From the NCBI GenBank assembly GCA_951230915.1, contig OX579642.1, forward strand, positions 5,642,001-5,706,000: a stretch of DNA of 64,000 nt, written 5' to 3'. Below are positions 5,521-49,009 of the stretch, piece by piece; positions within the stretch are counted from its first letter, which is position 1; every line of letters begins with the position of its first letter. The notes under the pieces were generated by a model that was not told the origin of the DNA, searched no databases, and saw only the letters and a program-made list of their open reading frames with translations. A program made the position numbers and the translations under genes. Source of the DNA: Antitrichia curtipendula (Eukaryota > Streptophyta > Bryopsida > Hypnales > Leucodontaceae).

Positions 5521-5547
5521 TACCCTCCGACCGAAGGTCGGAGGGTA
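5521..5547. repeat. Perfect 12-bp stem, 3-nt loop hairpin upstream of PBD
   Basis: TACCCTCCGACC is followed by GAA and then its exact reverse complement. It lies about 200 bp upstream of the proteasome gene start, in its promoter or 5' UTR region. Confidence 0.75.
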
Positions 5548-5746
5548 GCTTCGAGCTTGTTTTTTCTGTCCGTCGGTCGGGCAGGTTGAGGCGTCATGCC
5601 AGAATTTCTTGGGACGTACGGTAAGTCCTTGCCCAAGCCCTCCTGTTGTAAGTTTTCGGAAGACATTTGTTGCTCTGTTGCTCAATTTGCACCGTTGCAG
5701 AGTTTTGCCGATTGTCCACTGTAAGCGATTTTAACCTCGATCGATC

Positions 5747-7707: not shown

Positions 7708-8756
7708 AGCAGAAATATGGTTGATCACTGAATGCTTGACTGTTAGCAAGTTTGGCATTGTGGACTTCAGAATAGCCGTTCTGGATGGGTTTAGCTCTCA
7801 TGTGAATAACTTTTCTTTCGAGACAATCATGCCAGAAGGCCTCCATTTGGGTTTAACTCTAGCATTGGTTTGTCGAAGTTTCGTTCAATTTGTTTGTCCC
7901 TGCTTGTGGCCTGAATGAACATCGTGAACAGGTGACTTTAATCTTGCTCATGTGAACAACTTCTTGCCATTATTGCTGCTATGGGGGAATGTGGAGCATC
8001 TGATGGGGTTTATTTGGAACTTTCTATCTTGAGATGTGTTCTGGACGATGGATTATTCTTGAGCGTCTTCCAAACAGTCGATACAAAATACTCGCTAAGT
8101 GTTAAATACTTGCAGAAACATAAGGTAGGGAACCTTACAAATTGTTTTGCAACCTCTAGCCTTCCCAGTTCCCAACAGACTCAGTTTCTGGTGCTGCAAG
8201 TGCTGAGGCAACAGAGTTTTTGATACAGTATAGTTGATTGTCAATAATACAATGTTTAGCGTTGGCAACTTCCGCACCAACACACCAGCGCATAACGGGA
8301 AACAACCGAAAAAGTTCAGTGACATTGAATTTGCAACCATCTTAGCTGTGCCAACTATAATTTGTATTTGGATCGCAGTGCATTAAGCTTGGTCTCCTCA
8401 TTGATAGATAGCTCCTCAGTCGCCAATATATCTTCCCACAACTTTCGTATGACTGCATCACAAGTTGATAGGCTGGAGGTCAAACACATACTGAGCAATT
8501 ACCGCTACTGGAATGAGACACTATTCAAGTCTAAGGATCGTGGAAGAGTCACCCTGACCAACGTAGAGAAATAGCAGCAAATTTGAATCGCTCTTCACCA
8601 AGAAACACAACCAAAAGCTTCAAAAAGAGTCGAGATTCTTGCGTAAAAACTATTCATGCCCTGAATAGCTATCAGTATGATATACTACTCCGAAGTCACT
8701 AACTGAAACAACTACAATCCAAGGCACTGCTCTGAAGAAGCGTTTCGTACTCAGAA
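7708..8756. other. Intergenic space between convergent genes (3' UTRs)
   Basis: This separates the PBD stop (plus) from the RPAP3-like stop (minus), so it should contain both 3' UTRs and polyadenylation signals. A 70-codon open frame at 8362-8574 (plus) matches nothing I recognise and has no splice or start support, so I do not call it a gene. Confidence 0.5.
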
Positions 8757-11700
8757 TCAAAACCAAAAAAACAGGCGAAATCTGAGGACGAGGAACTGAC
8801 CCGTTTTGTCCTTGACCGTGAGAAATAGGATTGTCATGTCGAACCGACCAACTTTAACCAGATTTTCCAATATACGCAGCACTAACCTTGTGTCATCACT
8901 GCAAAACAAATGACCTATGAAATTGAGAGAGTTTCAATGGAACCCACCTGAGTTGGTGAGACGAATCATTGTTCCATATGGACACTTAAGGTCCATGGAT
9001 AAAATATTTTGCATTTTATCACTTAAAGGAACTTGCTCAACTACATAGTGCTTAATAAGAGTCAAACCTTCTAAACAAAAAGATTGTGTAAACAGATTCT
9101 ATCAAGTTCTATACATAGAATTTGTAACCATATATAATTAGAACTTTATGAGCGGCAAGAAAAGACGTGCAACAATGGATGAAATGAAGAAATCTCACGG
9201 TAATAGCAATGGCAAACTGTTCATGATGTCCATCAGCAATGGTGCCCCCAATAAATCCTTGAACACTTTAGGCAGTGAAGATGGCTCCATGATCTACCAG
9301 TTCCAATGCAATAAACATCAGAACGTCAGATTATCTTCATAAGAATAAATGGTCATCGTCACGCCAATCAATGCAGAGAGGGACAGCAATGTGTACCTTT
9401 AGAAGACGAGATTGAGACTGACGATCATTGGCAAAACCTTTCCAAGTTGCCTCAAATTCATAAGAGGTCTTTGGTGCAATCATATTCCTTGCCAATCCAG
9501 CTGTAACATTCATAGCTGCTCGATCTACAGCAGCTTGTGAAGGCGCTGTCACTTGTGCAGTCAACTTGCTGTCCACCTTCTTGCCCTGGGCACAAGCAAG
9601 ACAAAAACAGTATTAAGGTTCATTGATTGCGCATCAATGAAAATGTCAAAGATCACGGCAACTAATGAACGTTAAAATGTCATTGAAGCTACAGATCTAT
9701 TATGCCCCATAACATCTCCGAACTTTGTTCTAAAAGGATTGGCAGGTATCCCAATCGAGTGTTTGCGTTGAAGTACCACGCCTCATTCAGCCAACGCTGT
9801 GACAAACATAAACAGCATTCAAGTCTTCTAACTTATTATAGATACCAGAGATGATTCAATAATAAAAAATCAGCAATGTCGCAGGCTGGAGGCACAGAGA
9901 GTTATCACAGCACAGATAGCAGCATTTACTTGTTTCGAGGGTTCTTTGATCTTTGTCGGTTGCATCGAAGGTGGCCGGGATGCGTCCAACTTTCTTGACC
10001 AGGCCAAAATATCATCTGAGCTTTCAGGCTGCGCACTTGGAGCAATCTTAACCTCTTGTGCTGAAGAGGGTGCCTCCACCGAACGATCCAACCTTCCTGA
10101 AGCAGATAAATTTCCATCTGAACTTCTAGGCTGTGCACTTGAAGCCACCTGTGAAGTGGCAGTTTCAGAAGGAGTCGCGCGCGGCCTGGTTGAAGCGACT
10201 GACCGACCAGATGCACTTGCACTGATCCCAGTATCGTTGCGGTCAAAAGGAACATTTCCTGCTTTCAAGGACGAATTCTGAGGACTTCTGAGGCTTGAGC
10301 TAGCCACAACAGTCTTAGTTGAAAGAATAGGAGTTGCAGTTTTCCTCTCATCCAGTTTTTTTGCTGAGCTTGCTCCACTGTTGTCTGTTGTCTTGCTACT
10401 AGAGTCCGTTGTTTGTTGTCTTGGACAAGATAAGTCACCACGTTCCAAGGAATTGATTGTTCGAGGTGATATCTTCGAAGATGACAATTCTTCAACCAAT
10501 ACTGGAACTTTCTTTTGCACAGGCTTTATCTTGGAAGCAAACTGTAAGAAAGTGATTGAGATATGTCACCTTTCGACACGAAAAGGAATATAAAATCACA
10601 TTTATCGATTATCGAGGCCCACTAACATCTATGTCCAAGTTACTTCCATAGACCTCTTCCATGACTTAAAATCTCATCAGACAACTTCAAATCATGCACT
10701 CTGTCAAATCAAATCTCTTGGCATCTAGACTTCAAATTTGTAGTGCATAGAATATTTCCATGGGTGCAGATATCCGCTCAATCCACAACTCAAGTAACTG
10801 GGTCCCACTTCACCGTAACAGTCGTATTATGACATCCAACATGCCCTTGATTTCTCAGGTTGTATCTTACAAACCTTTTCGTATATGTCTTTTGCTTCGT
10901 TATACTGCTTCTTAAGCTCCTTGTTTTCAGGCTCCAAACGCAAAGCAAACTCAAAATCTGCAGACATGGACATACCACGTTATGATACAAACACTGGCAA
11001 ATACAATTATAATTTTGAAGGCTCGTAACGAGAGCTACTGATGTTTATGATATCAAGAGGTCTCACCTTCCACGGCTGCAAAATACTTTTGAAGCTCTTT
11101 ACGTGCCGTCCCCCTACGGGAGTAGGCTTTGGTATAGCGATCATCCAATGAAATGGCCTCCGTACAGTCCACTTCTGCGTCTGCATATCTGATGTGAAAA
11201 TCCTTGTTAGAGAGTACGATTTGAAAAGGGACAAGTTAGTGATCTCACGCGTAGTATTTACTGATTAGATAACTAGTATAAGTACTAGAGTAAACTCGAT
11301 ATTCATGTAGATAGACATAAAATCAAAATGACGTAGAGAAAACATAGAAAGAAGGTAAGATATTTAATACGATGTGCAGTATCATGAAAAACGTAGGCCT
11401 GGAAACAATCATGCAGTCTCAGAAGCGCAAAAAATCCTAATATACACATGCGTCACACAACCGAAGAAATTCTCAAATAAAATTGCCAAATACTAATCTA
11501 TTAAATGCAATAGCAGTATGGTGGAGCACAGTAAACCCTCAGTTGTGAAAAAATCGAGCGCTGCAGATTGAACCCTTCCTATTCAAGCACACGAATTGAC
11601 AGTAGACTTTCATTATGTTTAAGCAGTCATGAATAGAAAATGTTTCAGCAAGAGTGACCTTCTTATCTTGAGTAAAGCCATAGCTCGATTTGCAAATGCC

Positions 11701-30234: not shown

Positions 30235-31469
30235 ATCCTCAAGTTAGGTAAGGTTTTAAACGGAAGCCATTATATCTAGTCAAATGGACAACTCCTACAA
30301 AATCTTGTATTTGTACCAAACCATTAGGGTAGAGTTTCAAATTTTATAGGGGCCAAACCATCTCATTTAAAATTTTCCAGAATTTTTTTGAAAACAGCTA
30401 TCAAATAAAAGAACTAAATCATTTTCTTTTAAGTTTTTAGGGGTTAGCTTATTGTCATAGTAGCTTTTCCAATGTTTTTGGATTGCTACCATATTAAGAT
30501 ATGCTTGTCTACGTGTTTCATCTAGTTTCTCTAACATCACATATCTGTGTCTTAAAAAATCTACGTCTCCTAATCTACATTCCATGGCAATTCTTAGAGA
30601 TTTTACCTCTAATTCAATGAATAAAATTGCCTCTTGGCCATAGACTAGTTGAAATGGGGTACAATTAGTGGTTACTTTAAAAGTGGTTCAATAAGCCCAT
30701 AACACGTCTAAAACTTGTGCATCCCAATCGGTATTAGCACCTTGGACCCTTTTAGTTATAATTTTGTATAAAATTCCATTAGTCTTTTCTATTTGTCATT
30801 GGCTCTTAGAACACCATATTCATTAAAATGAGAGATTGGAGACCTCTCAAAATAATCATGTTGATCTCGATCTAAAACATCAGTTTCCATTAAAATGAGA
30901 GTTTTGATCTAAATTGATATAAAACCTTTCAATATTAGGTCAAATCTGAAAGGTTTTCTGTCAATTTAACTCGAATAAAGTTAAATTGACAGAAAACCTT
31001 TCAATTTTAGCTGAATTGGCATAAAATATTTGGTTGATTTTTTTTAAATAACTTCTCATTTCAATGGAAAACTCCCATTTTAATGAATATGGTGTTTTGG
31101 GTGGTAGGGACTAGTTTTCTAATGTTTAATAAAATATTTTTTGGTCAATTTTTCAATAGTATCATGTATAAAATGTGCACCCCGATCACTTACAAGTTCT
31201 CTAGGACAACCAAAATGAGTGATAATATTTTCATACATAAATTTTGCAACTGTTTTGGCATCATCAATTTTAGTGGCAACGGCTTCTACCCATTTAGTGA
31301 CATATTCTGTTGCAACGAGAATATATCATTTTTGGCCATGTTGACTAGGGTTTTTTATAGGACCTACAAAATCAATGCCCCATTTTTCAAAAGGAATTTG
31401 TGCTAAAATAGGAATTAGAGGCATGGATGTTGTAAAAGTTTGTTTTCCAATTCGCTGGCAAGGATCACA
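30235..31469 (-). pseudogene. Ty3/gypsy integrase, core and C-terminal part (broken)
   Basis: Minus-strand translation shows the second half of an HHCC zinc domain (CDPCQRIG), the catalytic core with WGIDFVGP, ATEYVTKWVEA and VSDRGAHF, then the C-terminal region with RLGDVDFLRHRY, ENDLVLLF and a final YPNG/RLKPYL stretch near 30,250. Several in-frame stops and at least one single-base deletion make it non-functional. A 285-bp MITE interrupts it just after the conserved YHP motif. The first half of the HHCC domain lies at 43,675-43,950, on the far side of the 12.2-kb transposon. Confidence 0.9.
30811..31095. mobile_element. 285-bp MITE (family C) inside the integrase
   Basis: The ends are perfectly inverted: ACACCATATTCATTAAAATG at 30811 and its reverse complement ending at 31095. 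Inside is a perfect 23-bp stem (30948-30970 with 30980-31002) around a 9-nt loop. Integrase frames resume on both sides, with YHP on one side and a GQxE-like helix on the other. No clear target-site duplication was found. Confidence 0.85.
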
Positions 31470-31479
31470 CTTTTTTGCA
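31470..31479. repeat. 10-bp target-site duplication, left copy
   Basis: CTTTTTTGCA here is repeated exactly at 43665-43674 immediately outside the other end of the 12.2-kb element. One base may be chance, giving the 9 bp usual for MULEs. Confidence 0.9.
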
Positions 31480-31525
31480 CGGGGATGCTAGTTTGTGAGC
31501 TTGTGAGCGTGAGCCTGTGAGCCTC
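31480..31525 (+). repeat. Left terminal inverted repeat with GTGAGC motifs
   Basis: This includes the left end of the transposon and several copies of TGTGAGC/GTGAGC within 40 bp. It is a candidate transposase binding site. Confidence 0.8.
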
Positions 31526-32153
31526 CATTTTTTTATCCATTTAGTATTCCTAAATTTGTTCAAGTCCTATGACCGTGGAAATAAATGTAAGGATCTATAG
31601 TCCAAATGAATAACAAATGAATATATTCCTATGAGATTTTGCCCCCCAGAATTGAACCATTCTATTTTTTAAAAATGAAATATTATAAAATAGGAGGTTT
31701 TTGAATGTAACACATAATGAAAATAGGTGTATATAGTGGTTTAGAATATCTCAGTACAAGATATATATTAAAATAATACAATGCAACATAATACCAAAAT
31801 TTTAAGGGAACATTTATCAATTTAAAAATAGAAGGGACAATAAATATGGGTTGTAGAGATTGAATATAAATTGAATGATAGGCAAAATTTTACAAGCATT
31901 AGAGCATGAACAATGGTCTTGAGCTTATAACTAAGTGATAAATGTAGTCTTAATTGTTGACCTTCATGTAAATTTAATGAATGAATCATAAGCTCAAGAC
32001 AATTTGGGCATAGACAAGCTCAAAGGCAATGTGGACATGAAGTGAAGTTGAAGGCCATCAAATGGAATTGTTGCCATTTGCCACATCATGCATAGTTAGA
32101 TTTAGTTAAACAAAAAGTAAATAGAAATCAAATATAAAAGCATGAAATTGAAC
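31526..32153. other. Non-coding subterminal region of the MULE
   Basis: AT-rich DNA, presumably containing the 3' UTR of the minus-strand gene. No ORF was recognised. Confidence 0.5.
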
Positions 32154-35100
32154 TCAAATATCGTCTGACTCAGATGCACAGAGTTCGAAATAAGAACATA
32201 CTCTGGGATCATAAGATCTATGAGGTGATAAAGAGATTGAAGATGAATCAGATGAAGCATCAACATAAGCTAATGCTAAATGTTCGGCATAAATAGGTAG
32301 GCCACAAGGACTCAAAGAAAGACTTCTAAGAAATCCAGGATGTCGATAAAAAGGCAAAGTGCGTCTTGGTGATGGACTCATCCAACTGCAAACAACAAAT
32401 CATATGTTTGAGTATATAGTAACAAATTAAAATTCAAAATACAAAACTTTGAATCGAAATTATTGAAAAATAAAAATAAAACTTACTCACATAAGTCAAG
32501 TAGTTCGACATCTTCAATTGGAGAGTCATCATCAATCTCCATACCATCATCCGAGGTAGTAGAATCAAGAGCCTTGGAGATGATTGTAGGTGTTTGTAAT
32601 GGCTTCAGTACCTCATCAAAGAGCTTGGCATCACTTTCTAATGCTAAAATATGACGATTAGATGAATGAGCTGCTTTGATGGAAGAACCTGTATAAGACA
32701 ATAAATTGACATTACAAATACATTAGAATTTAAGGGTAGATAGAAAAATCAAATTAGAAAATACAAAAAACAATGATTCAATGATATAGATTACAATACC
32801 TGTAGAGGCAGTCATGTCTGCCACAATACCACTTGTAGGGGTCAAGCCATGAACAAAAAGCTTCATGAGAACCTTTGACTTCTCCTTAGCACCCCTCCAT
32901 GGCTTGCCATCTTCCTTTCTACGTGATTGAATTGTCGTCGTAATAGTGTTGAAGAGGACGTCATCTGTAGTTAAATCAACCTCAGGAATTGAGGGATCAA
33001 TAGAAATCTGAAGCTCTTGAGGTTGCTTAGCAATGGGAGAGGCAAATGATCGAACCAACAACAAAGCCTTGAACTTCAAAGTCTGCAAATCAAAATTAAA
33101 ACCAAGTTAGATTGTACATTTAAATGCAAAATTCATTATAATAAAAGACTTCAGTGAATTTGAGAAAATACTGTTCAGGTCCAGTCCACCTGATCTGCAC
33201 CAGAGATTGGAAAACTGGAATGTTGAAGTGACGATAACTTACTCAGATTTTGTCCAAACTGGGCATATGAGGTGTTTTTTGACATCTACGGAATCTGTAG
33301 ATGTCAAAAAACACCTCATATGCCCAGTTTGGACAAAATCTGAGTAAGTCATCGTCACTTCAACATTCCAGTTTTCCAATCTCTGGTGCAGATCAGGTGG
33401 ACTGGACCTGAACAGTATTTGAAATCAGAGATTGGAAATAACGAATATGGTGTTACTTGAAATCAAAATAAATGACATCTACAAGTGAATCAAAGCTAAA
33501 AACAAAAGATTGAAAGTAGTACTTACAAATTTGGATGGATTCATAGGATTGGCCAAATGTAAGCAATTTATGATAGTCCACTCATCCTTGATCTTCAACT
33601 TGTAGTTCTTGAAGAATCCAGCCACTTCTCTCTTCACTGTGGAACTGTCAGGATAAAATAGAAGAAATGCTCCATCATCATGAAGATAGGTAAGAAAGAA
33701 TGCCATCATTACTTGGAGGAAACTTGGAATGCTAGCATTCCAATGAGGAATTTCAGATGATGGATTTGAAACCTCTGGAATTGGAAGACCATCTGGATAT
33801 TCTGCAATGATGAGGTCTACAGCTGGTCTCTTTTGGATTTTGCCATCAAAAAAGAACTCTCTACCTTCACCAACCTGTAAAGATAAATTTCAAAAATGTT
33901 AATTCATAATAGAAGATGTCAATGTCAAAGAAGAACAAAAATGAGAAGATGTAAATGATGTAGAATATGTAAGATTACATAACAATCAAAATGAGATGGA
34001 AATAAAACAAATAAACTAACCTTTGAGAGAAAAGCCACAATGTTCTCATATGGTACTCCAAATGTACCATTCTTTTTTTTTTCTTCAATGATTCTAACAA
34101 AAGAATCGTTCAAGATTAGATCAGAAGATGTATGATTGGTAGACAAAGGAGCCAATGTACTCCTCATACCTTTAAGCTTGGGAGGTAGCTCAAAAATAGG
34201 AGAGGAGGTTGGTACTAAAACCACGGGAGTAGAAGACGTCTTCTGGCGCTTTAAAGCAGGGAGTGTAGCTTCAACATTCGAAGATGAAGGTCCAGTAACC
34301 ACAAGGCTCTTGATAGTGTCTTGAACTAGTACATCTTCACTGGAATCATCAAGTTCAACCACCAACTTCTTTAACCTGGTCTTCCTGGTCTTCTTGGTTG
34401 CCTCCTTATCTACTTTCTTAGGAACATCTATAGCTGTACCCTTGAAGGCGGGCTCAATAGAATCTCGAAGGACAATATCAAAAGTTGGTGGTCTTTTGAG
34501 GGGACAATCCAAATACCACCCACATTTTTCCCAATGTATGGGATCCCAAGATGCCATGATCCCCTCTGTGAACATACACTCTTCACTTTCTTTGTCCAAA
34601 TAATTGGCAAAGAAAGTGGGAGTCTTGAAAATGGCTTTGGTAGGGAAGAGGACATACTTGAAGTATCTATAAAGCACCCTTTGCATGGCTGACTTGAAGT
34701 TGAGTTGCTTCTCTATCTTATTATTCTTGTGAACCCCCTTATCCACAGCAAACTCACGAAAAAATGCAGTATCCCACAACAATATGCGCATAGTCTCCAC
34801 ATAATCAAAAATGGTAGGCAAAGAATCCATACCATCAGGAAGATAGTTAATAGATACGTCCAAATCAGTCACTGTAGCATTGAAGAGTTTTTCGGTCTCA
34901 ATAGCCAACTGCCATGCACATAAATTGTAAATTAGAAGAATGTTTTGATTGATCCACAAGGTTCAAAGAATACACCATATTCATTGTAATGAAAGACTTT
35001 AGTGAATTTGAGAAAATACTGTTCAGGTCTAGTCCACCTGATCTGCACCAGAGTTTGAGAAACTGGAATGTTGAAGTGATGATAACTTACTCAGATTTTG

Positions 35101-38100
35101 TCCAAAGTGGGCATATAAGGTGTTTTTTGACATCTACAGATTCGGTAGATGTCAAAAAACACCTTATATGCCCACTTTGGACAAAATCTGAGTAAGTTAT
35201 CATCACTTCAACATTCCAGTTTCTCAAACTCTGGTGCAGATCAAGTGGACTGGACCTGAACAGTATTTGAAATCAGAGATTGGAAATAACAAATATGTAA
35301 TGAATATGGTGTTAGAATTAATACTAAAACTATAAGAAAGAAAGATAAGTACTTACTTGAGCCCACCATGTAGCTTTATGAAGCCACTCTGGAAATTCAA
35401 GGTCACTGAATTTTGGTTTAGAGAACTTGAGAGCCTCACGAAGAGAAGGAGACTTGTTCCATCTCTCAAGCCACTTGATCTTCATGGAAGTATCCATTGC
35501 TGAAGTTGCCAACATCCAAAGTTTCTCTTGGGTCATCTCCGGATTGTCGTCATGAGTTTCATAGTGAAGCTTGACTTGCTCCAAAAATGCAATCGTATGT
35601 TTTGGATCTGCAATGGGAAGCTGCTTCTTCAATTCGGAATGAGAAGCCACCTTGACCTTATCAATAGCTTTGGAGACCCACTCAGAAACTGCAGTTGAAG
35701 TCCAATCCGCGGAATCGGGATACTTTTCATAGAATTTTCTTTGAGCAGCAGCAGCAGCATCCCCCAACTCTTGCTGCACAACGTAAAGAAAATTTAAAAA
35801 TAAACATAAATGTTCATGAGAACAAATGTTTTGCATAGGAGAACAAGGGATATGAAATCAAATTAAAAAGAAGAACTAATGTCAAGAAGCTTAAACATTC
35901 AAGAAAATATGAAAAGTAGAAAAGGAAATAAAGAAGTAAACCTGGTACAAGACTCCATTTAGAGCCTCAATAGTTAGAGTGAACCAAGTCCTGTGTTTTG
36001 ATTTTTGCTTGGCTTCAGCTGCAGCAAGATCCTCCTTAGAAACAAGTTTCTCAAAATATGACAGTGGCTGCCCGGCAATATTATGAATGCGATAGAGCTT
36101 GTAAACAAGATTTATGGAAACATGAGACTTCTGGTTTCGCCTGCCAAAACAAAATTTACTATATTAAATCATATAAATTAAACATTCAATTAAAAGAAGG
36201 TAGGACATAATGATTCAAAGTGAACAAACATTGGAAACGGAAGACTTGAATAAAATGGAAATTCATCAAGGATGATAAGAAAATACCAATTGACTTCATG
36301 TAATGCTGTCAATGTAGTTGCAACATCCCCTTTGACTTCCAAAATGATACTTTCAACCGCATAATGCCATTGAAAGTCGTCCGTATGATCTCGGTTGATA
36401 AGAGGTAACCATGCTTGCAAACGATGGTTTCCATCCCATACCATGAACATCTTGCCAGAGAGAACTTTGAGATCTTCATCGTTTTGCAATTCTCTCTCAA
36501 ATGCAGCATTTGCTCTCAGCCAATTTGGACTCCAGGTTTTGATAATGTCATCCGTGACATCCACTGTCTTCCCTTCATTGTTCTCCAAGGCAACATAAAA
36601 AACGCCATTTCCTTCCATATAACCACAAGTAACAAAGTGTGCAGCTAAATTCATGACATCATTCTTCAAGAAAGGCCTCACCACCGGTAGAGATATCATA
36701 CGGCATAAAGGAATGTTGATCTTTGATTTAGCTCGTGGTTGATACCTCAAGCGCTCAAGACGAGAAGAAGTATTCACAGTCTCCTTCTTCAAAAATCCAT
36801 GCAACTCTAACTCAAGTTGATTTTGAGAAAGAGGCTCAAGTATAGCATTGACTCTTGGTGCTTGTGGATCTCCTTCTGCCGGCATCCCCAAAACAATGTA
36901 TACATAAAGATTAGAAAAAGTTTTGGTGGAGGCCCAAGAATTTTCAGCATAAAATGACATAGATAGCATACATTCATAAGCAAATGTGTGTCTCAAAAAG
37001 TGTGGCCGTCAACGGCTGGGGTCTAAGGTTTCCTAGAAAATTTCAGATTTTGATAAGCATTGAGGAACATAGCATACATTCATAAGCAAATGTGTGTCTC
37101 AAAAAGTGTAGCCGTCAACGGCTGGGGTCTAAGATTTCCTAGAAAATTTCAGATTTTGATAAGCATTGAGGAACATAGCATACATTCATAAAAGAATATA
37201 TGTCTCAAAAAGTGTGGCCGTCAACGGCTGGGGTCTAAGAAGTGTCTAAAAAATTTAGCTTTAGACAAACATAGCAATGTAGTATATTTTGACAAGCAAT
37301 TTATGTCTCTAGAAGCATGGCCATTAACGGCTACGGCCCAAGGTCACAAAGATTTCAGCATTTGATCAAATCCCTAATGTTGTATAGAGCCAAAAGAATT
37401 CAGCATTAGCCTAAATCCCTAATGTTTCGTAGAAGAAAATGTATGTCTCAAAAGTGTAGCCGTCAACGGTTGGGGTCTAGGAAGGCTCACGAAATTGTAG
37501 CACCTTGATTCTGAAATTAGAATTCCGAAAATTGTGTCCGTTCAAGGCTGTTCATTAGAGAGGAAGAAAAGAGCCGAAAAAAGCGCAGCCGTTAACGGCT
37601 GGGGTCTAGGAAGGCTCACAAAGTTCTAAACTGGAATGCAGAAAAGCGTGGCCGTCAACGGCTGTCCATTAGAGAGGCGATATTGAACACAAAATAGGAT
37701 TTGAAAAAGTGCAGCCGTCAACAGCTGGGGTTTAGAGAGGGCAAAAAAATTAGCCACGCACCTGGATTGGCTTCATTCGGCGTACTTGCTGTCCTCTTCT
37801 CTTCCTGGATCGTCTTTTCTCCATGCTCATCTCCACGCTCCAAAACCGCCGCATCTCCCGCAGCAGCCTCTCCTGCAGCCTCCCCTTCCTCCATCGTGAA
37901 AGTTTCTTCCTCCAGTACCTTCAAAGTTCAAAGACAATGTGCGAAGAAACCACAAGGTTTAGGTAAAAGCAAGTGTCCAAAAAAAAAAAAAAAAAAAACA
38001 AGTATAAAATTGGTAGATGTATCTCAAAGGAATCATGCAAAGAATTTTTTCAATTTTCAAAATTTTAAGCCAAATTTTTTTGTACTTGTAGAGTCTTCAG

Positions 38101-38831
38101 GTCAGAATTACTCTGATTTTTTTCAAATTTTTTGGACACTCGAGCGATTTTACAAAATTCGCCAATAACTGCTGAAAATCAAAAGGCTGGATTTGGCCTC
38201 AAAATCAGCGGATTTTGAAGATTTCAAGCCAGATTCCAAGATGCCGTTTTAGTTTTTAGGCCGTAAAATACTCAATATGCATCCGTTTTTTCCGTGCTAT
38301 ACACCCTTGGAATTGGGATTCCGACGCGTACAAAATCATGTCAAGTTCCTAGAAATCTGGCTCGCTAAAATTTTCACATACTTTCTCATTTAGCATTGCT
38401 TGGAAAAATTATTTACGTACCATTCTGTTTGTAACTTCAAGCTCCATCTCCAACTCTAGCGTTAGAAGTAAAAAGTGCTCATGCTGTTGTTGTTGATGTC
38501 CTTCTCCCTTGTCTTCATTTTCTTCTTCTTCATCAATGTGTTCATCACAATCACTATAGCTACACACAATCTCTGGTTGAGCTTCACAAGATGTACACCC
38601 AACTTCTACAATATCCTCTCCTATTGCTTCACATGGACTTATATCTCCATAAGTCAAATTCCTCGTTGAGCTTGACAAATCAGCTGTACTAATTCGGGAC
38701 AATCGTCTAATCATTCTAGCCCTTAACAATTGCTTCTTACTCGAATAACGAAAGCTACTTCTCCTCTTCTTCTTCCTCTGTGGAACTTCACTGTCCAACA
38801 CTAACAATGGAGGAAGCAATTCCTCCTGCAT
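32154..38831 (-). CDS. ParB-like/DNA-methyltransferase-like fusion protein of the MULE, 10 exons
   Basis: Exons (minus) by splice site and phase: 38831-38421, 37918-37762, 36875-36287, 36140-35942, 35773-35357, 34908-34021, 33874-33527, 33082-32800, 32688-32487, 32385-32154, giving 1,241 aa. The first exon is the least certain; without it, an ATG at 37894 gives 1,096 aa. Residues about 245-370 resemble a ParB/sulfiredoxin-type domain, ending in FMVWDGNHRLQAW. Residues about 890-1,160 resemble a permuted beta-class (N6/N4) DNA methyltransferase: DLIIAEYPDG sits where DPPY is expected, then HDDGAFLLFYPD, and later VADMTASTGSSIKAA with HILALESD, matching the FxGxG AdoMet loop and following acidic residue. 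ParB-methylase fusions are known in prokaryotes and phages. The catalytic DPPY is replaced, so activity is doubtful. Function is inferred. Confidence 0.75.
33113..33440. repeat. Near-perfect ~130-bp hairpin in intron of the ParB-MTase gene (copy 1)
   Basis: The left arm at about 33158-33289 and right arm at about 33296-33420 are reverse complements with very few mismatches around a short loop (centre about 33292). The right edge carries GAATATGGTGT, as in family C MITE ends. It lies wholly within the intron 33526-33083. Confidence 0.92.
34972..35312. mobile_element. Near-perfect foldback element in intron of the ParB-MTase gene (copy 2)
   Basis: The ends are ACACCATATTCATT and AATGAATATGGTGT, identical to the ends of the MITE at 30811. 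Arms at about 35012-35137 and 35145-35273 pair almost perfectly. The sequence is closely similar to copy 1 at 33113. It lies wholly in the intron 35356-34909. Confidence 0.92.
37005..37725. repeat. Array of nine GCCGTCAACGGC palindrome-like sites
   Basis: Copies or near copies start at 37005, 37111, 37217, 37320, 37459, 37537, 37589, 37651 and 37714. The 37587-37600 copy is the perfect palindrome AGCCGTTAACGGCT. The first three are spaced exactly 106 bp and share longer flanks (a tandem repeat); the others are embedded in diverged sequence, mostly followed by TGGGGTCTA or TGTCCATTAG. The array lies in the intron just before the ParB-domain exon. Confidence 0.88.
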
Positions 38832-39482
38832 CTGAAATAATCAACTATCAAGGCATTACAATATCAACATCTACCATATTACATCACACCCTCTTCTGAA
38901 CTTACATTTCTATCTACTACTTCCTCATGTCCTGCAACCTTTTATATTCGATGAGACTTCAACAACTTCTTCCTACAAGGATATAAGTTCATTTCAAGAC
39001 TACATAACGGCTACTTCTATTTGCTACTCATCATCATCGATTACAATATTCTCGACCGGCCACTAAATATATTATTATAATTGTAAACGTGTCCTACGTC
39101 GCCATCAACTCTACTGCTTGACGTCTTGACATCTATTGTCAGTGACAGTTTTAACATTGCCAACTTGATTTAATTCATATTGATATCTTTCATATTGTAA
39201 TCCATTTATTACTGGTGATGTGCTAATTGATACCATACAATATGCCGTCTTACCCAACTCCATTTCACCTACCTCTTCTATATCAAATCTTGATACGGTA
39301 TTTATTCATGACCATTCAAATTATCAATCCAATTTCAAATTTAGTACATCCATGAAAAAAATTTCATTCAGTTTGAACAACTCTATTATTGTTCCTTTTA
39401 AATTCACGCCCTTTACACTCGTAAACACCATTGCTTACTTCTTCATTCTTCGTCTCTCTTCCCATTTTTTTAATGCTTCGCT
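38832..39482. promoter_or_regulatory. Shared divergent promoter region of the MULE genes
   Basis: About 650 bp separate the outermost ATG of the minus-strand gene (38831) from the transposase ATG (39483), so both promoters should lie here. The stretch is AT- and pyrimidine-rich. No specific elements are assigned. Confidence 0.5.
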
Positions 39483-42400
39483 ATGGCTAGTATTGTTGCT
39501 AAAGGTCATGATGTCCCATTTCTTCTACCACTGGATAGTCAAGGTATTGTTCGTGTGCTTGCCCATCTTCTTCATGTCCGGTTTGGATTCACCCCTTCTT
39601 CTATTATTGTGGAGGAAGAACTCCAAGGAGATGACGGTGTTGTTACGGGGTCTATCTTACAATCAAGGTGTACTGATCATGAAGAATTCTACTGGCTTCT
39701 TCTTGCTGGACGCTATAGAGTTTATGATCTCCTATCGGGGCTCTTACCACCTTCAACTGAAGGATTGACACTTACTTCTGATAAGTCAAAGGGACAACAC
39801 CCATTACCACGTCTTGTAAAAGTGGAGTCCCTAGGCAGTGGATGCTCCGAGAACACAATTGCGTTCAATATCAAGCGTGAGTCTATAGAACCTGTCATTG
39901 AGTTGTCTAGCGATTCTGAAGGTCAAATGCCGATTAAAGTTTGCCAACCTTCTTCTTCGAATGTTCATTTCCCACGTATGGTAGATTCATCCATTCCTAC
40001 TATCTTCCATAGTACACTTAGTAGTCCAGCATCGTCTGGATTTTCTCGTCCTCCTCTCCCCCCCAATCATCGCGATTCTTTAACCGTATTAGAATGCCTT
40101 CGCAAATTGTCTTCAGTGCTTGGTTCACGAAACGAACTTGCCCAAATTGATTTTGATGCCATGGACTACCACAAGGTTCAGTTTCTCCCGACTAGATTTG
40201 ATGGTAATGTTCTTTTTGAGCTACCACCTTCTCGTGGTTCCACATGTGGGGCTAGAGGCATGGAAGGTATGGACAAGCGATATGATGGTCATACATGGTG
40301 TCGCACCATGACATCAAACATCCATAATGACTTAGGTTTGAAGTTTAGAAAATTGCATTGTGTTGGGCACTTGATCTGTGAAAATACAAACTGTGACTAC
40401 CGCACACGAGCTCTAAAAAGCAATGAATCTCAGTGGATTGGGACCACCAAACATCCTTTTAGTGTAGGTCAGATTCCTCCTCCTGACTCTACCGTGCTCT
40501 GTAAAGTTTGTAGACAACCTCCTATTTGTCTCAGTCTATGTAACTCGAGAATTTATTATGTACTTAGAACTGGAGAATTGTCACGTGCATGCATCCATTT
40601 GGGTGTTCATTCACATCCTGTTTCTGATGGTCAATGTAGAGAGTCTCTTGAAGCAATAACTAGTCTAATTGCTAACGAGGTAGCTAAGACTCCAACAGCC
40701 AAAACTTTTGCCATTACCTTGGCAGCAAGCAAGGAATTCCTTGACACGTTTCTTATTCACGATGGGCCTGGACCAAAGGAGATGCTTCATGGTGATGCGT
40801 TAGAGAATGTCATGGATAAGTTCAAGCTCCTTAGCTCACCCAATGTGCGCAACATTGTTTCCTCCTTTCGGAACAACAATAAAGGTGCAGGCGAGATTGA
40901 TCGAATTCTTGACATGAAGGGACGTGCCAAAATGGAGTACATCCACGATAGTGTATTTCCAGGACAAGGACAAGATAAGGTTTATTTATTCAAGATGCTT
41001 GTGAATGGACCTGGAAGTGGAGTGGATCTCGTGCAACGGATGCAACCAGGCGGCAACCTTGAAAACTGTTTTATCATGTTCGATCATGTCAAGAGAGTGA
41101 AATTATGGACGACTATTGCTTGTCACGTCTATGATGCCACTTATTGTAAAGTCATGACCATAGCTGTATGTGATATGCAGACTGAGGGCACCGAAGGCCA
41201 GATCATTTTTTGGCATTGTTTGAATAGGGTCATGGTCAAAAATGGAGTGTCAAATCCTAACTTCAAGGGATTTATGTGTGATAGCGCTCAAGCCAACTTC
41301 AATGCTATTCGCATTGTGTATGGGTCAGGGGATCCATCTGTTCCAATGGTGGATCGTGAAAGGACTTGTTTGTTCCATTGGGCGACAAGCATGCACAAGC
41401 ACACAGAGAAACTAATCTCCAAAGAGTTCCAAAAACAGCATATCCGACTCTGCAGGCAGTATGAGGATGCAACGTCAATGGCTGAGGCAGAGATAATGTA
41501 TTTAGAAATTAAAGCTTGGTGGTATTCTTCTGGAGCTACATCAGAACCAGCTATCAGTGAACTTGAGGACTGGCTAGCATTTTGGCACTTTCGATATCGT
41601 CAATGGGGCGCATTCATGGATACGGTATGATCTCTACTTTCATAATTTGGTTTTCTAGTTTTTATTCTACATCTTCAATGTTTTAAATAATGACTTCATT
41701 CAATATATTTGCAGAAATTGACAACAGAAGAATTAGCAGATATTCCAACATGCAATCTTGCAGAAACTATGCACAACAAATGGATGCAAGCTTCAGGAAA
41801 GCGTGGATCTGATTTGTTCATTGCCACATGTGATGACTGGGTTCAAGCCTTCATGCAAATGACCAACTACAGAGCTTATCTTTGTGGGGGCCCTTCCGGA
41901 AAAGGCCCCTCTAAAGAAGATTTGAAATTGAAGAGGGCTATGGCATCTGGAGATGGGAAAAAAATCGCAGAAGCACTTAGTGAGATGCCTGGAGCTGAAG
42001 ACGTTTGCACTCGAATTCCGCATTTGGAGGGTGAAGAAGTATTTGGGTCTAGCAAAAGGAAATTAGATCTTCCAATTGGTTCTGAGGGTGATTCTCATCG
42101 CCCTGACAAAGTAAACTTCTCTCATCCTCGGGTTCAAATTAGATCAGCTACTGGTAGAGTGCAACTTGGGTCTGCAGTTGTAGAAACTAATACGGTTTTA
42201 TCCCATATCCAATCTGTCATGGAAACTGATTGCGATACATCAGAATGGCATATAGCGAGACTTTCTCACAAGTCAAGGAAACAGTGTCATGCCATTCAAA
42301 AGTATACACAAGCCAAATGCAAGCTATTGATTGTTAGGCATGGAATATCCACTGCTGCCCCTACTTATAGAGGACAAAAGCGTGAGTATAAGGGCACAAC

Positions 42401-43097
42401 AGTTCAAACTGAGGATTTCTGGTTTTGTGCAGACCAAATTGCACGATGCGTCATGGGACCTAAGCGTTCCCATGTTCTTACTCGACCTGAGATCCCTGAG
42501 ATTTGGCCTGTTCTTATTGGTACAAATCTTAGTCGTACTGAAATTATAGAGTTTGAAGAAGCTGGGTTCCGCTTGCAATCTAGCATTCCGATGTCACCGC
42601 GACGGCTATTTACCTCATCTAGAATATTTGAGCCCATGTTGTGGACTCATCCTCGACCAGCACATGCTGAAAGAATTCCTTCTATTCGGAATGGCAAGCA
42701 AGTTCGTCAGAGCAGTAAGGCCCCCACCAAAAATCACCGCAATCAGTGGGAGAGTGCAAGAAATGTTACAGCAAGTATCACTGGAGTGAACTTCCTTCCT
42801 TACCCTGGACTTGGTGCCATTATTACACTTCTGTCTGGTACTGAACCTAATCAAAAGGTTTATAATATCACGCTTTCAAATTTTCCATCTTGTACATGTC
42901 CTCATTATGGAGGTATGAATGGAACTTCCATTGGAAAGCGTGGTATGTACATAAACTGCAAGCATCTTTATTACATCTTTCGTTACTTTTGCAAATTGAA
43001 TTACAAGACAGACACATTCATCCACGCTCCTACCTTGAGTTCGGATGAAGTTAAGCAAGTGCTCGTTGCTGCCGGAATCATCAAGACATGCGAGTGA
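39483..43097 (+). CDS. MULE transposase with WRKY-GCM1-type zinc finger and SWIM domain, 2 exons
   Basis: Exons 39483-41624 and 41715-43097 join in phase 0 (ACG/GTATGA to TTTGCAG/AAA) to give 1,174 aa. Residues about 285-385 contain CVGHLIC, CKVCRQPPIC and a terminal GVHSHPV, the Cys/His pattern of WRKY-GCM1 zinc fingers found in some MULEs. The transposase core follows: YDATYC (about 549) and GFMCDSAQANFNAI (about 598) supply candidate catalytic aspartates. CLFHWATSMH (about 629) is the C/H motif, and an acidic helix ahead of WLAFWHFRYRQWG may supply the Glu. A SWIM finger, CTCPHY...NCKHLYY, lies at about 1106-1130. No stop or frameshift is seen, so it looks functional. It should bind the element ends and catalyse cut-and-paste transposition in the nucleus. 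Confidence 0.9.
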
Positions 43098-43569
43098 AGT
43101 TAGTGAACAAGTTAGTTGACTAGTATTAGCATGATATGAAGTACATCTATAGTACCAATATTTTATCTTCAAAATTTTCATATATGCAGATTATTATACT
43201 CATATTTCAATATCTATTCTTTTTTGCAATGACAAAATATTTTATTATCTGTAGGATGTTGAATTCTTTTTGATATTTTCATTGTATTTGTCTTTTTGTC
43301 AATTTTAGAATTCCTTTTGGATTAACTATTTGTACTTTCACTTTATAAGCCTATTCTAAGACAGACTCTGAAGATGTGATTTAAACCATTAAACTTGGAT
43401 ATAAAATTTGAGTCTGCAATAGCACCAACTTTTTAGGCTTTTAAATCCACGGTCATGGGTCCCATGGCAATAGGACATATTTTCAAAAAAAAACTTTGCT
43501 AACAAAACCTCAAATTTTTTTCCTTTTTAATTACAAAAAATTAGAAATTTCTCCAAAATTCAAATTTGT

Positions 43570-43664
43570 AGACTTCAGGCTCACGCAATTCCTGCTCACC
43601 GCTCATAGGCTCACGCTCACCGCTCATAGGCTCATGCTCACATGCTCACATACTAGCGTCGTTG
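43570..43664 (-). repeat. Right terminal inverted repeat with GCTCAC motif array
   Basis: This includes the right end of the transposon and about eight copies of GCTCAC/GCTCAT (the complement of GTGAGC), with CACCGCTCATAGGCTCA-type units repeated in tandem. Confidence 0.85.
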
Positions 43665-43674
43665 CTTTTTTGCA
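43665..43674. repeat. 10-bp target-site duplication, right copy
   Basis: Exact repeat of CTTTTTTGCA at 31470-31479. Confidence 0.9.
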
Positions 43675-46600
43675 TATCATACAACATCTAAAAACATAGT
43701 AGGCCATCAATAGCCAAACTGCAATGCTTTTTGAGCTATAACTAATCCCGCAAAATGTCCACCACATATATCACTATGACACCCTTCTAAAATTGATGGT
43801 ATTTCACTAGGATTTATACATCTTCTTAGAATTTTGTCTTTTCCCTTTTTATAAAAAACATCCACAATTAGTGTATATGGACTTAATTTGTACATTAACT
43901 TTTTCTTTTCATTTTTGGTATATTCTAAGGAAAATAGACCAATGGACAAATAATGGATAATATCAGCATATTATGGTAGAATTATATCTACTTGGAATAA
44001 CTCAGCATCTGGAAAGTTATCATTAATAGGTTCTTTTTCCAATTCTTGACTAATACGTGAAAGATGGTCTGCATTTGCATGACTTTTCCCAGGTTGAACT
44101 TGGACAGTAAAATTAAATTCTTGTAAAGGTAAAATCCATCTAGCAATTTGTCCACTTAATTAGGGTTTATTTATCATGTATTTTAGTGCATCATAATCTA
44201 CATGAAAAACAAACTTATAACTCAATAAATAATGTCTAAATTTTTGTACATAATAAATCATTTTGAGGGCTTCTCTTTTGGTGACAATATAATTCTTTTC
44301 AGCAGCTGCCAATTGACGACTAGCAAAATAAATGGGTTTATCATGCTTTTTTTTGTCTTTTTGACTTAATACACTCCCTATGGCAACATTAGAAGCATCA
44401 ATATAAACTTCAAAATCTTTATCCCAATTAAGGGGAATTAGGACTAGGGTAGTTGTTAGTTTACGTTTTAAAGTATTAAAAATGTTGGTACATGCTGCCA
44501 TCCATACTGGGGTTGTATCATTCTTTTTTGTTAATTCTATTAAAGGTATAGCTATATTGGCATACTTATAAATATACCTTCAATAATAGCCTACATGTCC
44601 TAAAAAGGCTCTTACGGTTGTAATATTACCAGGTTGAGGTAAATCTACAATTATTGCTACTTTATCAGGATTAGTGGCAATTCCTTGGTTGGAAAGAATA
44701 TGTCCAACTAGTTTACCATATGGAACTGCAAATTGAGATTTAGCGGCATTAACTAAAATTCCAAATTTTTCACATTGTTCAAAACATTTTTCAAGGTACT
44801 CAACATGTTTTTCTTTTGAACGAAAAATACAAAAATCATCTAAAAAGATTTCCATGAATTTTCATAAATATTCTTGAAAGGCTATTGTCATTAACCTTTG
44901 AAAAGTAGCCGGTGCGTTACAAAGTCCAAAAGGCATTACGGTACAGGCAAAAATTCCCCAATCTGTTGTAAATGCTGTTAATAATCTATAAATTTTTGCT
45001 ATTTGAGTTTGGTTATATCCAAAAAACACATCTAAAAAGGAATAACATTCATATCCTGCAACACCATCAAATAGTGTATCCATAAAAGGTAAAGGAAAAT
45101 GATCCTTTTTAATTCCACTATTTAACTTCCGATAATCTTGACAAATTTTCAATTTGCCATTTTTCTTAGGTACAATCACAATTGGTGAAACCCATTTACT
45201 ATAAGGCATTGGAAAAATAAATCCACATTCTAATAATATATTGATTTCTTCTTTAATCATTATGGAATACTTTGGATTCATTCTATATTGTCTGTGCCTC
45301 ACAATTTTTACATTTGGTTCAAGTTCTATTGTATGTTCACACACCTCAGGTTTAAATCTTTATAACTCCAAGCAAATACACTTTGGTGTCTTTTAAAAAA
45401 ATTAAACCAATATTTAAAATCGGTTTGAGACATTTTGGTGTAAACTTTAATAATTTTAGGAACTTCATTAGTTCCCAAATTCATTTCTTGTAAAGGGTTT
45501 TCAACATTTCCTTAAACTTAGATTTTTCTTTTTGTTTGAACATAGAATCACCATAAGCTAGTAATCTTTTATTTCTTGAGTATCTGAGTTAAGCTCATGT
45601 TCAAATAGAGAAGATTGACCAGAAGGGAGTTCTTCTACTAATATGTTCATTACCTCGGAGTTTTCCCATGCTAAAATAGCATCATCCGAATCTTCTATAT
45701 TACTTAAGGATGTAAAATATTCACCTAATTCCACACATTTATAAGGAATTTTCTTCCTTCTTTTCTGTGTTTGTTCAGATTCAGTCGTAGTATCGGTGGG
45801 ATTTTTTGAAGTAATATTAGAATCTTCTTCTCCATGATAAATAGGAGGGTATAAAGATAATATAATTTTATTTCTACCCTTTCCAATAGTTAAAGTTCCC
45901 TTTTCCATATCATCTTTAGCTTTAGCTAGGTACAACCATGGTCTCCCTAATAAAATTGGGTAGGAAGAAATAGATGCATTAAGTATGAATACAATATAAT
46001 CCACTTTATAATCAATTCCCTCGATTGTTGTTAAAATTTGGTTTAACATTCCTAATGGTTTAACTCTACTTTGATCTGCCATTCTAAGTATAATCAGAGT
46101 AGCAGTCATAGTATTTAGCCCTAGCTCTTCCATAATTTCAAAGTTCATAAGGTTCACACTAGAACCACTATCAATTTGGACTCCATGGATTAGTGTTTCG
46201 TCAATTATAACTTCAACGATAGGAGCTCCAAGATCTATAGTAATTTCATGTAACTCTAAAGATTTTACTCTTTTTCTTACCAAAGAAGTGCTCAAGTCAT
46301 TCCTACACTTAGGAGATATGGCCAAAAGTTGTTTCCTTGTTATTTCGGGTTGAATTTTATTTAAATTGGCTAACACATTATAAAGCTCCATTCCTATTGC
46401 CAATTTCATTGTTTGCGGTGTTTTTTTTTTCGTTGAATTTAATTCACTTTTTTTAATAGGAGTTTTATAAAAATTTGGCAACAGGTTTGGTACATTAACT
46501 GGAGCTTCAATCAAGAAAAAATTATTTTGAAAAGGTAAAGATTTAATTGGTTGGGTTAAAATTTCTACAAATATTGGATCTGAATCAAGATCCGAGTCTT

Positions 46601-46748
46601 CTTTTTCATGAAGGGTTTCTTTTAGTGGTATTACCACTTGTGGTTCCCTATCTAGTTTATTCAAGGATTCCATAGGACTTGATCTTACAAAAAATTTAGG
46701 AATTAAACTTTCTTGGTCTACGTCTCTTGGAAGATCATTACCTACCAA
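43675..46748 (-). pseudogene. Ty3/gypsy pol: protease, reverse transcriptase, RNase H, integrase N-terminus (broken)
   Basis: Read on the minus strand, the protease frame (46748-45558) has an aspartic site IDSGSSVNLM and the YPILLGRPWL motif. Reverse transcriptase (45344-44580) has CQDYRKLN, FLDVFFGYNQ, FGLCNAPATF and FLDD in place of YxDD. RNase H (44501-44160) has YIDASNVAIG. The integrase zinc domain (43949-43707) has the two His of HHCC. The order protease-RT-RNase H-integrase is that of Ty3/gypsy elements. Frames are separated by stops and frameshifts, for example a stop just before the catalytic FLDD. The integrase continues at 31,469 beyond the inserted MULE. Confidence 0.92.
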
Positions 46749-46889
46749 ATTTTGTTTAGCTTTTGTTGCCCTAGTGGTAACAAAAGTATCCTCTAGACAA
46801 GGATTTCCAATAGGAATAATATAAGAGATATGGTTTGAAGACCTATTGTTATCCGGTTCTTGAAATGAAACTTGTTTTTCTTTATTATA

Positions 46890-49009
46890 ATCTCTCTCTG
46901 ATGCTGAAAATTTTCTAGGTGGTCCAGTACAATCTTAGGTACATGACCTAGTTGTCTACAACGTCCACAATAGGGTGTATAACCTACCTCTTTCAGTGGA
47001 TTAGGACAATTATTTGCATAATGTCATAATTCACCACATCTATAGCACACTATCATTTTTCCATCTTGTAGGGATCCATACCTATGTGTATTAGAATTTG
47101 TAGGTGGACCATTCCAAACTGGTGGTTTGTTATAGGTGTCATTCCAACAAGGTCTATTATTGTTAGGTTTATATGGTGGTCTATTATTAGAGCAGGTAAA
47201 TGGCCTTTTATTAGGATTAGATTTATTTATCCAAGGTCATTGATTGTCTATTTGAAGTACTTGTTTTACTTCACAAATATCTTGTTTTACGGATGCTAAA
47301 TTCCAACACTTATCTGTTGGATGGTTTCCACCACAAAAACTACAATATGGTCTAATGTTATTGGAATTATCCATCATAGGAGAAGGGCACTCGCTAGGCA
47401 AGTGTCCATGTCCTTGACAATTGGTACACCACACATTAGTCCTAGTATTAGTGGGTTTAGCTCTTTTAGTGGGTGCATTAGTAATTTGAATCCTTAAATC
47501 AGCCATTTTTTCAGTTAATTTATTTAATAGATCTAAACTAGGATTTATAATTTCTCGGTTAGGTGGTATTACTACCAAAGGTTGCATTATTTGTGTTGGA
47601 GGATTCCTCATAGGAGGAGGTTGATACATGGATGGTGGATAAGTAGATAATTGAGTTCCTAAAGGAGGGTAGACCAAATTTGGAGGGTACATAGTAGGAT
47701 CTATTGAAATCAATTGGTCTTCCCCTACTCGAGCTTCTTCATATTGTTTTGTATATTGCAATGCAGTAGCTAAATCTCTAGGATTTTTTTCTTTTATAGC
47801 AATTTTAAATTCAGGTGGGTATAATCTTCCTACAAAAATTCTAGTTAAATAAGCATTTGGTATCCCATGATCTCTCCAACGTTGTAATATATACTCCATT
47901 CTCCTATGATAATTATTTACACTTTCTCCTATAGCCATTCTAATGGTCCTTAAACGTTCTTGTAGACTCTCAATAAAAGTCAAAGGTCTAAATCGGTTAA
48001 GAAATGCATCCCTTAATGCATTCCAAGTCCTAAATGGACCATTGGTTTCATACCACTCTTGAGCAATACCTAACAAGGTAGCAGGGATGTAATAAGATAG
48101 TTATCTTCTGGTATTAAATTGGCTATACAAACTATATTAAATCGATTTATATGATTATCCAGGTCGGAACCCGCTTGACCATAATATTGAGGTAATGTAA
48201 CCAAATTTAAAGGTTATGGTTGTGCCATATTATAATCGTCCAACCACTTATCTTCTTGAAACTTTGGTGTTTCTATATCAAGGTTTAAATTATCTGGTAA
48301 CTCTGATTGTGGTTGATATGGCTCTTTTGAAGGCTTTATATTCTCTTCAGTATTAAAATTCAAAAACTGCCCGGTAGATATTTCCAAACGAGGAGGTGCC
48401 TCCAAATATTTTAAAGGTATAGAGCTGGTAGAAGAGGCTTCTATACTTTCTTTTACAAGAGATAAATAATTTTCTAATCTTTCTACTACACTACATCCCT
48501 TTTCATTCCAAGTTTTCCTTAAATATTGTGAAATAATAGCATTGAATTCTGGAGATTTAAAAGCCCAAGAATAATCTACCAGTATTGTAGATCTTCAGGG
48601 ATTGCTAGATGTTCTTACTATAGGAGAGATACTCTCACCTATAGCTAGAGATGTAGCAGTATCTTTGAATGGACTTGCCGTACTTTGTATATTTTTACTA
48701 ACAGGTTCCTCGAATCCTAATAAAATTGTAGAACTAATTTCAATATCAGTTTCGGATTCCGATAGTTCACCTTGGGATTCATTCTGTTTTTTAATGAATC
48801 ATTGAAAGTGTCCTAAGAGGATTCTACAATATTTTCACCAATTGGACTAGAAGGTCGTTGGATATAATCCATTGGACTGGTAGAGGACTAGGTGGAGAAA
48901 AACAAGGATTTGTATAAGTAGCTACTGTCCGTCTATATTTTGATTTTCCACCTTCATGAACCTTATATATGGCTTCCTCAAATATCTTTTTCGGATTTTG
49001 ACCAGACAT
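46890..49009 (-). pseudogene. Ty3/gypsy gag with several zinc knuckles (broken)
   Basis: Minus-strand frames 49009-48824, 48405-48214 and 48076-47237 carry pieces of a gag protein. The clearest is a retrotransposon gag domain (WNALRDAFLNRF, IRMAIGESVNNYHRRM, HGIPNAYLTRIFVGRL). CCHC knuckles follow: CTNCQGHGHLPSEC and CSFCGGNHPTDKC, then CYRCGEL and CGRCRQLGH near 46,930-47,060. Stops and frameshifts separate the pieces. Confidence 0.85.

Follow-up and report, generated by a model that had tools for sequence, protein, structure and literature searches.

A putative ParB-like, methyltransferase-like accessory gene in a Mutator-like transposon of the moss Antitrichia curtipendula

A stretch of 64,000 nucleotides from the moss Antitrichia curtipendula (contig OX579642.1 of assembly GCA_951230915.1, positions 5,642,001 to 5,706,000; hereafter the window, G000:C10:5642001-5706000 in our searches of the genome, 400 Mb in 303 contigs) contains one transposon of 12,185 bp, at 31480-43664, in which a methyltransferase-like gene and a transposase gene lie back to back. 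With about even confidence, we read the methyltransferase-like gene as the second gene of a recently active, large Mutator-like transposon, whose product would be a self-recognising accessory factor, for anti-silencing or for transposition, and not a methylase. In the protein, a ParB-like domain at the N-terminus would be followed by a conserved middle region and then by a beta-class methyltransferase fold without the catalytic aromatic residue. It would bind the DNA of its own element, with a palindromic array and the repeat-rich ends as candidate sites, and would either counter host silencing or help to build the transposition complex; the methyltransferase fold would serve as a scaffold that binds DNA or S-adenosylmethionine (AdoMet), not as an enzyme. 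New here are the lost catalytic motif, the GCCGTTAACGGC-type palindromic repeats in intron 2 and the Mutator-like setting. The enzyme part appears to have been turned into a conserved non-catalytic scaffold, and the array beside the ParB-like exon offers a testable candidate target.

Gene structure, ends and copies of the element

The gene (32154-38831, minus strand) has ten exons, GT-AG introns and a single open frame of 1241 residues. A spliced aligner returned the identical ten-exon model, except that the last exon lacked the stop codon. We fitted spliced models to 20 fetched copies with the window protein as guide, giving 21 models with the window. The intron after residue 386 was found in the same place (within 3 residues) in 21 of the 21 models; the place was kept in 20 for the intron after residue 452, in 19 for that after 591, in 18 for the glycine-loop intron (1098) and in 11 each for those after 887 and 1003. 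Since intron places and gene order recur in diverged copies, the exons form one gene, and we reject an origin of the exons from different genes, the possibility against which the initial annotation had set its single ten-exon transposon gene. This comparison of predicted models confirms the ten-exon gene as real and correctly placed; terminal inverted repeats and target duplications place it within a transposon.

The window element has a 10-bp direct repeat on either side of 31480-43664, and its similarity to copy L019, from a subfamily 84% identical to it, starts at 31480. As a rough yardstick of chance, random 40-bp pairs had a 10-mer in common in 31 of 20,000 draws, a figure to be read with the caveat that pairs less than 3 kb apart were skipped yet counted in the 20,000, and that the end search covered more positions than one pair. 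Ends were fetched for 5 of the 29 other close copies. The right end base was identical in all five, and the left end base in the four whose left end was reached; these four, read at both ends, had exact target duplications of 9, 9, 10 and 10 bp. Mutator-like elements make target site duplications of 8-11 bp. Because the transposase matched no Pfam family (at E up to 1 or up to 10), the label Mutator-like rests on ends and duplications, joined by a SWIM-like CxC..CxH tail recognised by eye at the transposase C-terminus; on these sequence features, the element is Mutator-like.

A genome search with the exon-3 protein gave 1308 candidates, of which the best 150 were scored, at 45-100% identity. 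At the DNA level, 40 of 149 candidates were scored, 30 of them at 97-100% and 10 at 83-85%. Since so many copies are 97-100% identical, the element probably moved recently. The order N domain, middle region, methyltransferase was kept down to about 33% identity (L038). The methyltransferase part was present in 18 of the 20 fetched-copy models; L032 and L033 lack it, and L033 has one on the opposite strand. Some models call for care: in L022 the methyltransferase comes from a stretch lying 3 kb beyond, perhaps part of a neighbour, in L034 it lies about 4 kb downstream, and in L023 motif I was mis-modelled. L022 also carries two methyltransferase-like stretches in tandem (5082-5928 and 7817-9121) behind one ParB-like gene.

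Between the window and L019, the ratio of nonsynonymous to synonymous substitution rates (dN/dS) was 0.04 for the N domain, 0.13 for the middle region and 0.22 for the methyltransferase, and such estimates show purifying selection between subfamilies. Among near copies, the ratio of nonsynonymous to synonymous differences (pN/pS) was about 0.5 (0.51, with five copies counted twice), and some copies have stops. We rejected a family of pseudogenes only, on dN/dS, although some copies carry stops.

Copies of the gene and of the transposase were also matched by position. Of the 44 best exon-3 copies (70-100% identity), 39 had a transposase in the opposite direction no more than 15 kb upstream; the unpaired five were at 70-88% identity. 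With the second transposase stretch, the best 91 of 2105 candidate copies were scored. Among the 42 best of these, 39 paired with one of the same 44 exon-3 copies; the 49 lower-ranked ones (58-83% identity) did not pair with any of the 67 exon-3 copies, of 150, that were compared. These lower-ranked transposases may come from a sister lineage of the element in which the accessory gene is missing or more diverged.

The two conserved ends of the protein

The motifs of the window protein are MVWDGNHRLQAW in exon 3, DLIIAEYPDGL in exon 7 and IVADMTASTGSSIKAAH...LALESD spanning exons 8-9. Profile comparisons support the C-terminal part as a permuted DNA methyltransferase domain of the beta class (N6/N4), in agreement with the initial annotation. 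For the Pfam family N6_N4_Mtase (PF01555) the curated cut-off is 26.7 bits. It was exceeded by L038 (1e-8, 35.8 bits) and, by 0.1 bits, by L030 (6.1e-6, 26.8 bits) with 7 apparent intron residues cut by hand; L037 (19.3 bits, 10 residues hand-cut) and L022 (20.8 bits) fell under it. L038 also matched methyltransferase families of PHROGs, down to 1.2e-9, and tblastn with it, run to E 1, gave 489 phage records; 16 of these cover at least 80%, and the best E among the matches listed is 1e-5. A five-member profile, with two members hand-trimmed, matched the PDB chains of DpnA and CcrM at 1.1e-4 to 1.6e-4. With hhalign, the family aligned to six phage methyltransferases at P 9.6e-12 over 200 columns, the whole domain with motif IV included, and to the C-terminal part of six phage ParB-methyltransferases at 6.3e-8, where reversed and other controls gave 0.19-0.28. 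The motif order IV, X, I, seen in the alignment and in hhalign with the six phage enzymes, is that of the beta class. A prokaryote or phage origin, also suggested by the initial annotation, is plausible from the methyltransferase similarity.

The catalytic motif of N6/N4 methylases is (D/N/S)-x-P-(Y/F/W). In the six aligned phage enzymes motif IV reads DLPYG in four, DLPFG in one and DILYG in one. The transposon family has EYPDG, DLPDG, DVPDG, DIKDG, DINDG, DLKSG, NMLEG and KYPDG: none of the 19 models with a methyltransferase part kept the aromatic residue, and 4 of the 19 have E, K or N at the position of the first acidic residue. The position described as DPPY-like in the initial annotation does align with motif IV of the phage enzymes, but its aromatic residue is gone throughout. 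Most of the 19 models retain the region of motif I (D..AS.G.S) and, after it, R.....E.D, in line with the proposed FxGxG-like AdoMet loop and its following acidic residue. Because the motif IV aromatic is absent from all the models, catalysis is judged unlikely, and with it the modification function proposed for the gene; the methyltransferase part is probably a conserved pseudo-enzyme whose catalytic site has been lost.

A DGxHR-type motif between a strand and a helix is typical of the ParB/Srx superfamily. DGNHR was exact in 18 of the 21 models and DSNHR, DGNHH or NGNHR in the other three. The strict pattern occurs once in the six-frame translation of the window and never in 30 base-shuffled windows, on which we rejected a chance motif. 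We found no ParB match in Pfam (PF02195 included), NCBIfam, PHROGs, PDB sequences or phage tblastn. Weak library matches were DndB (0.076, window) and DUF1015 (0.13, 1 of 19 models), and a stronger one was DUF5531 (0.017, 3 of 19). We take DndB and DUF1015 to be ParB-like, and as far as we know DUF5531 is not; the first two matches are suggestive for this reason and no other. Since DGNHR is conserved but library and profile matches failed, the assignment of the N-terminal part as a ParB domain, made by the initial annotation, stands as plausible. Outside this genome, tblastn found no close relatives of the N domain or the methyltransferase in viral contigs, nor of the N domain in genome contigs.

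Palindromic repeats and possible roles of the protein

Directly before the ParB-like exon 3, intron 2 holds an array of palindromic repeats, a candidate self-recognition site judging from its sequence and placement. Counted over both strands, the window core GCCGTCAACGGC has 14 matches, where 0.65 are expected; they fall on 8 sites, and no such sites were found in the rest of the window; the core count was 8 against 0.04 expected in L019 and 6 against 0.02 in L020. Shuffles equalled these counts in 0 of 100 cases for the window and 0 of 200 for each of L019 and L020, although tandem duplication alone multiplies a site and inflates the counts. Upstream of exon 3, the eight sites of L019 and the six of L020 resemble GCCGTTAACGGC and are mostly about 97 bp apart, and the sequence between them has little similarity to the window. 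At this place, the palindromic repeats of other subfamilies are different ones (64-bp units with GTGCCG(N4)CGGCAC in L036, similar units in L037); L025 has no palindromic repeats before exon 3. Of perfect palindromes with 8-bp arms, 27 were counted upstream of exon 3 (about 21 x 1600 bp), where shuffles of the same stretches gave about 2.3, and 16 downstream of the DGNHR codons (21 x 4000 bp); tandem duplication raises the upstream figure, and shuffles break repeats. L038 and L029 (gene on the minus strand) have a long degenerate repeat array at about 7860-9580, upstream of the N-domain exon; it occupies the usual place of the palindromic array, yet has almost no perfect palindromes. In L038 a palindromic 57-bp unit lies past the 3' end of the gene (2149-2257).

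Several results weigh against a self-recognising ParB-like accessory factor. Aligned with hhalign to nine phage ParB domains, the N-terminal part reached P 0.3, no better than controls; with a 38-residue insertion removed, picked after the alignment had been inspected, a collinear, non-significant match reached P 0.044, a score exceeded by 2 of 40 shuffled controls. AlphaFold2 models were poor, with a predicted local distance difference test (pLDDT) score of 42.5 for exon 3 alone (19 rows) and 43.3 for L024 exons 3-4 through intron 3. The low-confidence model (pLDDT 43) runs strand, helix, strands, helices, strand (DGNHR), helix, an order expected of a ParB fold, and a Foldseek search with the L024 model returned 307 matches up to E 10; none reached 0.001, and none of the 50 listed had a ParB label. 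We discarded these predictions as evidence either way. The methyltransferase piece of the window scored 18.0 bits (E 0.046 for the whole protein, 0.0029 for the domain alone), under the Pfam cut-off; the profile check proposed in the initial annotation gave N6_N4_Mtase above the cut-off for L038, with the window under it, and no ParB match. In 6 of the 21 copies, the stretch before exon 3 lacks perfect palindromes with 8-bp arms. Over 14 pairs, dN/dS was not always low (0.04-0.62 for the N domain, 0.22-0.81 for the methyltransferase), some high values stemming from poor models or short divergence. Finally, none of 23 far exon-3 copies examined, out of 106, was paired with this transposase, among the best 91 of 2105 transposases.

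This last result also argues against a protein that partners the transposase structurally, as a second subunit that binds the ends or takes part in synapsis, with no role in silencing, comparable to mudrB of MuDR. Such a partner, which we consider possible though somewhat unlikely, is favoured by the divergent arrangement with a transposase in 39 of the best 44 copies and by the N domain being under the strongest constraint. A self-recognition akin to plasmid partition, in which the ParB-like, pseudo-methyltransferase protein loads on the intron palindromes and then spreads over the element or clamps along it, is a more speculative and clearly unlikely variant; if true, it would set all element copies apart from host DNA, whether for anti-silencing, for counting or for synapsis. 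We are yet more doubtful of an active DNA methyltransferase that marks element DNA with N6-methyladenine or N4-methylcytosine for self-protection: domain homology, the conserved motif I region and a proposal published for algal relatives (PMC12477816) favour it, but the motif IV residues lost from the transposon models are kept by the phage enzymes. By far the least probable origin is a host gene captured by a Mutator-like element of the Pack-MULE type, a passenger useless to the element. Gene capture is frequent in Mutator-like elements; here, the many candidate copies, the introns common to 21 models, the purifying selection between copies and the enclosure of gene and transposase within one pair of ends led us to reject it.

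The accessory factor that we favour resembles several known systems in part. VANC and VANA are anti-silencing proteins of the Arabidopsis VANDAL Mutator-like elements; the likeness lies in an accessory gene of a Mutator-like element and in the proposed self-recognition of element repeats, and to our knowledge they have no domain in common with the moss protein. Should the moss protein shield its element against silencing, this would make two unrelated solutions, the other being that of VANC-type proteins. METTL14 and DRM3-type proteins are catalytically inactive methyltransferases that serve as partners; they too conserve the fold without catalytic residues, but are host genes from other families. 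Phage ParB-N6_N4_Mtase fusions, such as that of Wolbachia phage WO (L048), have the same domain order and methyltransferase profile matches; in contrast, the six phage fusions are of about 400 residues, have no middle region and keep D-P-P-Y, and their ParB parts have no profile match to that of the element.

The combination of the two domains in a transposon is not new, contrary to the initial annotation: the accessory gene of Sola1-1_Ec32 of the brown alga Ectocarpus encodes ParB plus a DNA methyltransferase, and green and red algal cases are cited (PMC12477816). Its protein of about 1,100 residues, with ParB-like and N4/N6 methyltransferase domains, is encoded opposite a transposase in a long DNA transposon, and by this description the moss gene is of the same kind as the published algal ParB-methylase genes. 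Compared by description only, the moss case differs in being Mutator-like (9-10-bp duplications), with 1241 residues, ten exons and a degenerate catalytic motif. Among the literature matches listed, judged by title and the start of the abstract, we found no case from a land plant or a Mutator-like element. The moss gene extends to a many-copy Mutator-like element a little-known class of transposon accessory genes, found in print only for algae.

Feature coordinates and neighbouring insertions

Table 1. Features of the transposon in the window (strand as + or -; a point where none applies)
Feature	Position	Strand	Remarks
Left target site duplication CTTTTTTGCA	31470-31479	.	same letters as 43665-43674
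Left terminal inverted repeat CGGGGATGCTAG...	31480-31522	+	35/43 identical to right terminal inverted repeat; same start base in 4 other copies
Exon 10	32154-32385	-	stop codon 32154-32156
Exon 9: AdoMet loop ends; R..ALESD acidic residue	32487-32688	-	
Exon 8: motif X and beginning of motif I (IVADMTAST)	32800-33082	-	
Exon 7: methyltransferase fold begins; degenerate motif IV, EYPD for DLPY	33527-33874	-	
Exon 6: conserved middle region, then low-complexity linker	34021-34908	-	
Exon 5: conserved middle region	35357-35773	-	
Exon 4: N-terminal conserved domain ends	35942-36140	-	
Exon 3: ParB-like domain, DGNHR motif	36287-36875	-	
Repeat array, intron 2, 8 palindromic core sites GCCGTCAACGGC (<=2 mismatches)	36963-37754	.	
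Exon 2	37762-37918	-	least certain exon
Exon 1	38421-38831	-	start ATG at 38831; similar stretch in L019 and L020
Transposase gene	39483-43097	+	open stretches 39474-41630 and 41694-43097, probable short intron between
Right terminal inverted repeat	43622-43664	-	same end base in 5/5 other copies fetched
Right target site duplication CTTTTTTGCA	43665-43674	.	

The element interrupts the integrase of a Ty3-type retrotransposon (31119-31325 and 43707-43970). With the flanks joined into an empty site, one frame reads, though interrupted by stops, the zinc-finger region of a Ty3-type integrase (...CDPCQRIGK). Open reading frames (ORFs) resembling those of long terminal repeat retrotransposons adjoin the element at 45558-48100 (minus strand), with a Retrotrans_gag match of 6e-11 for 47240-48100; the ORF at 45561-46934 had no Pfam match. 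Within the gene, two near-identical 255-bp hairpin inserts lie in intron 7 (33166-33420) and intron 5 (35014-35268), with 127-bp arms, 98% complementary, and a 1-nt loop. They are absent from the corresponding places in L019 and L020, and look like foldback or miniature inverted-repeat transposable element insertions, or like hairpins that give rise to small RNA.

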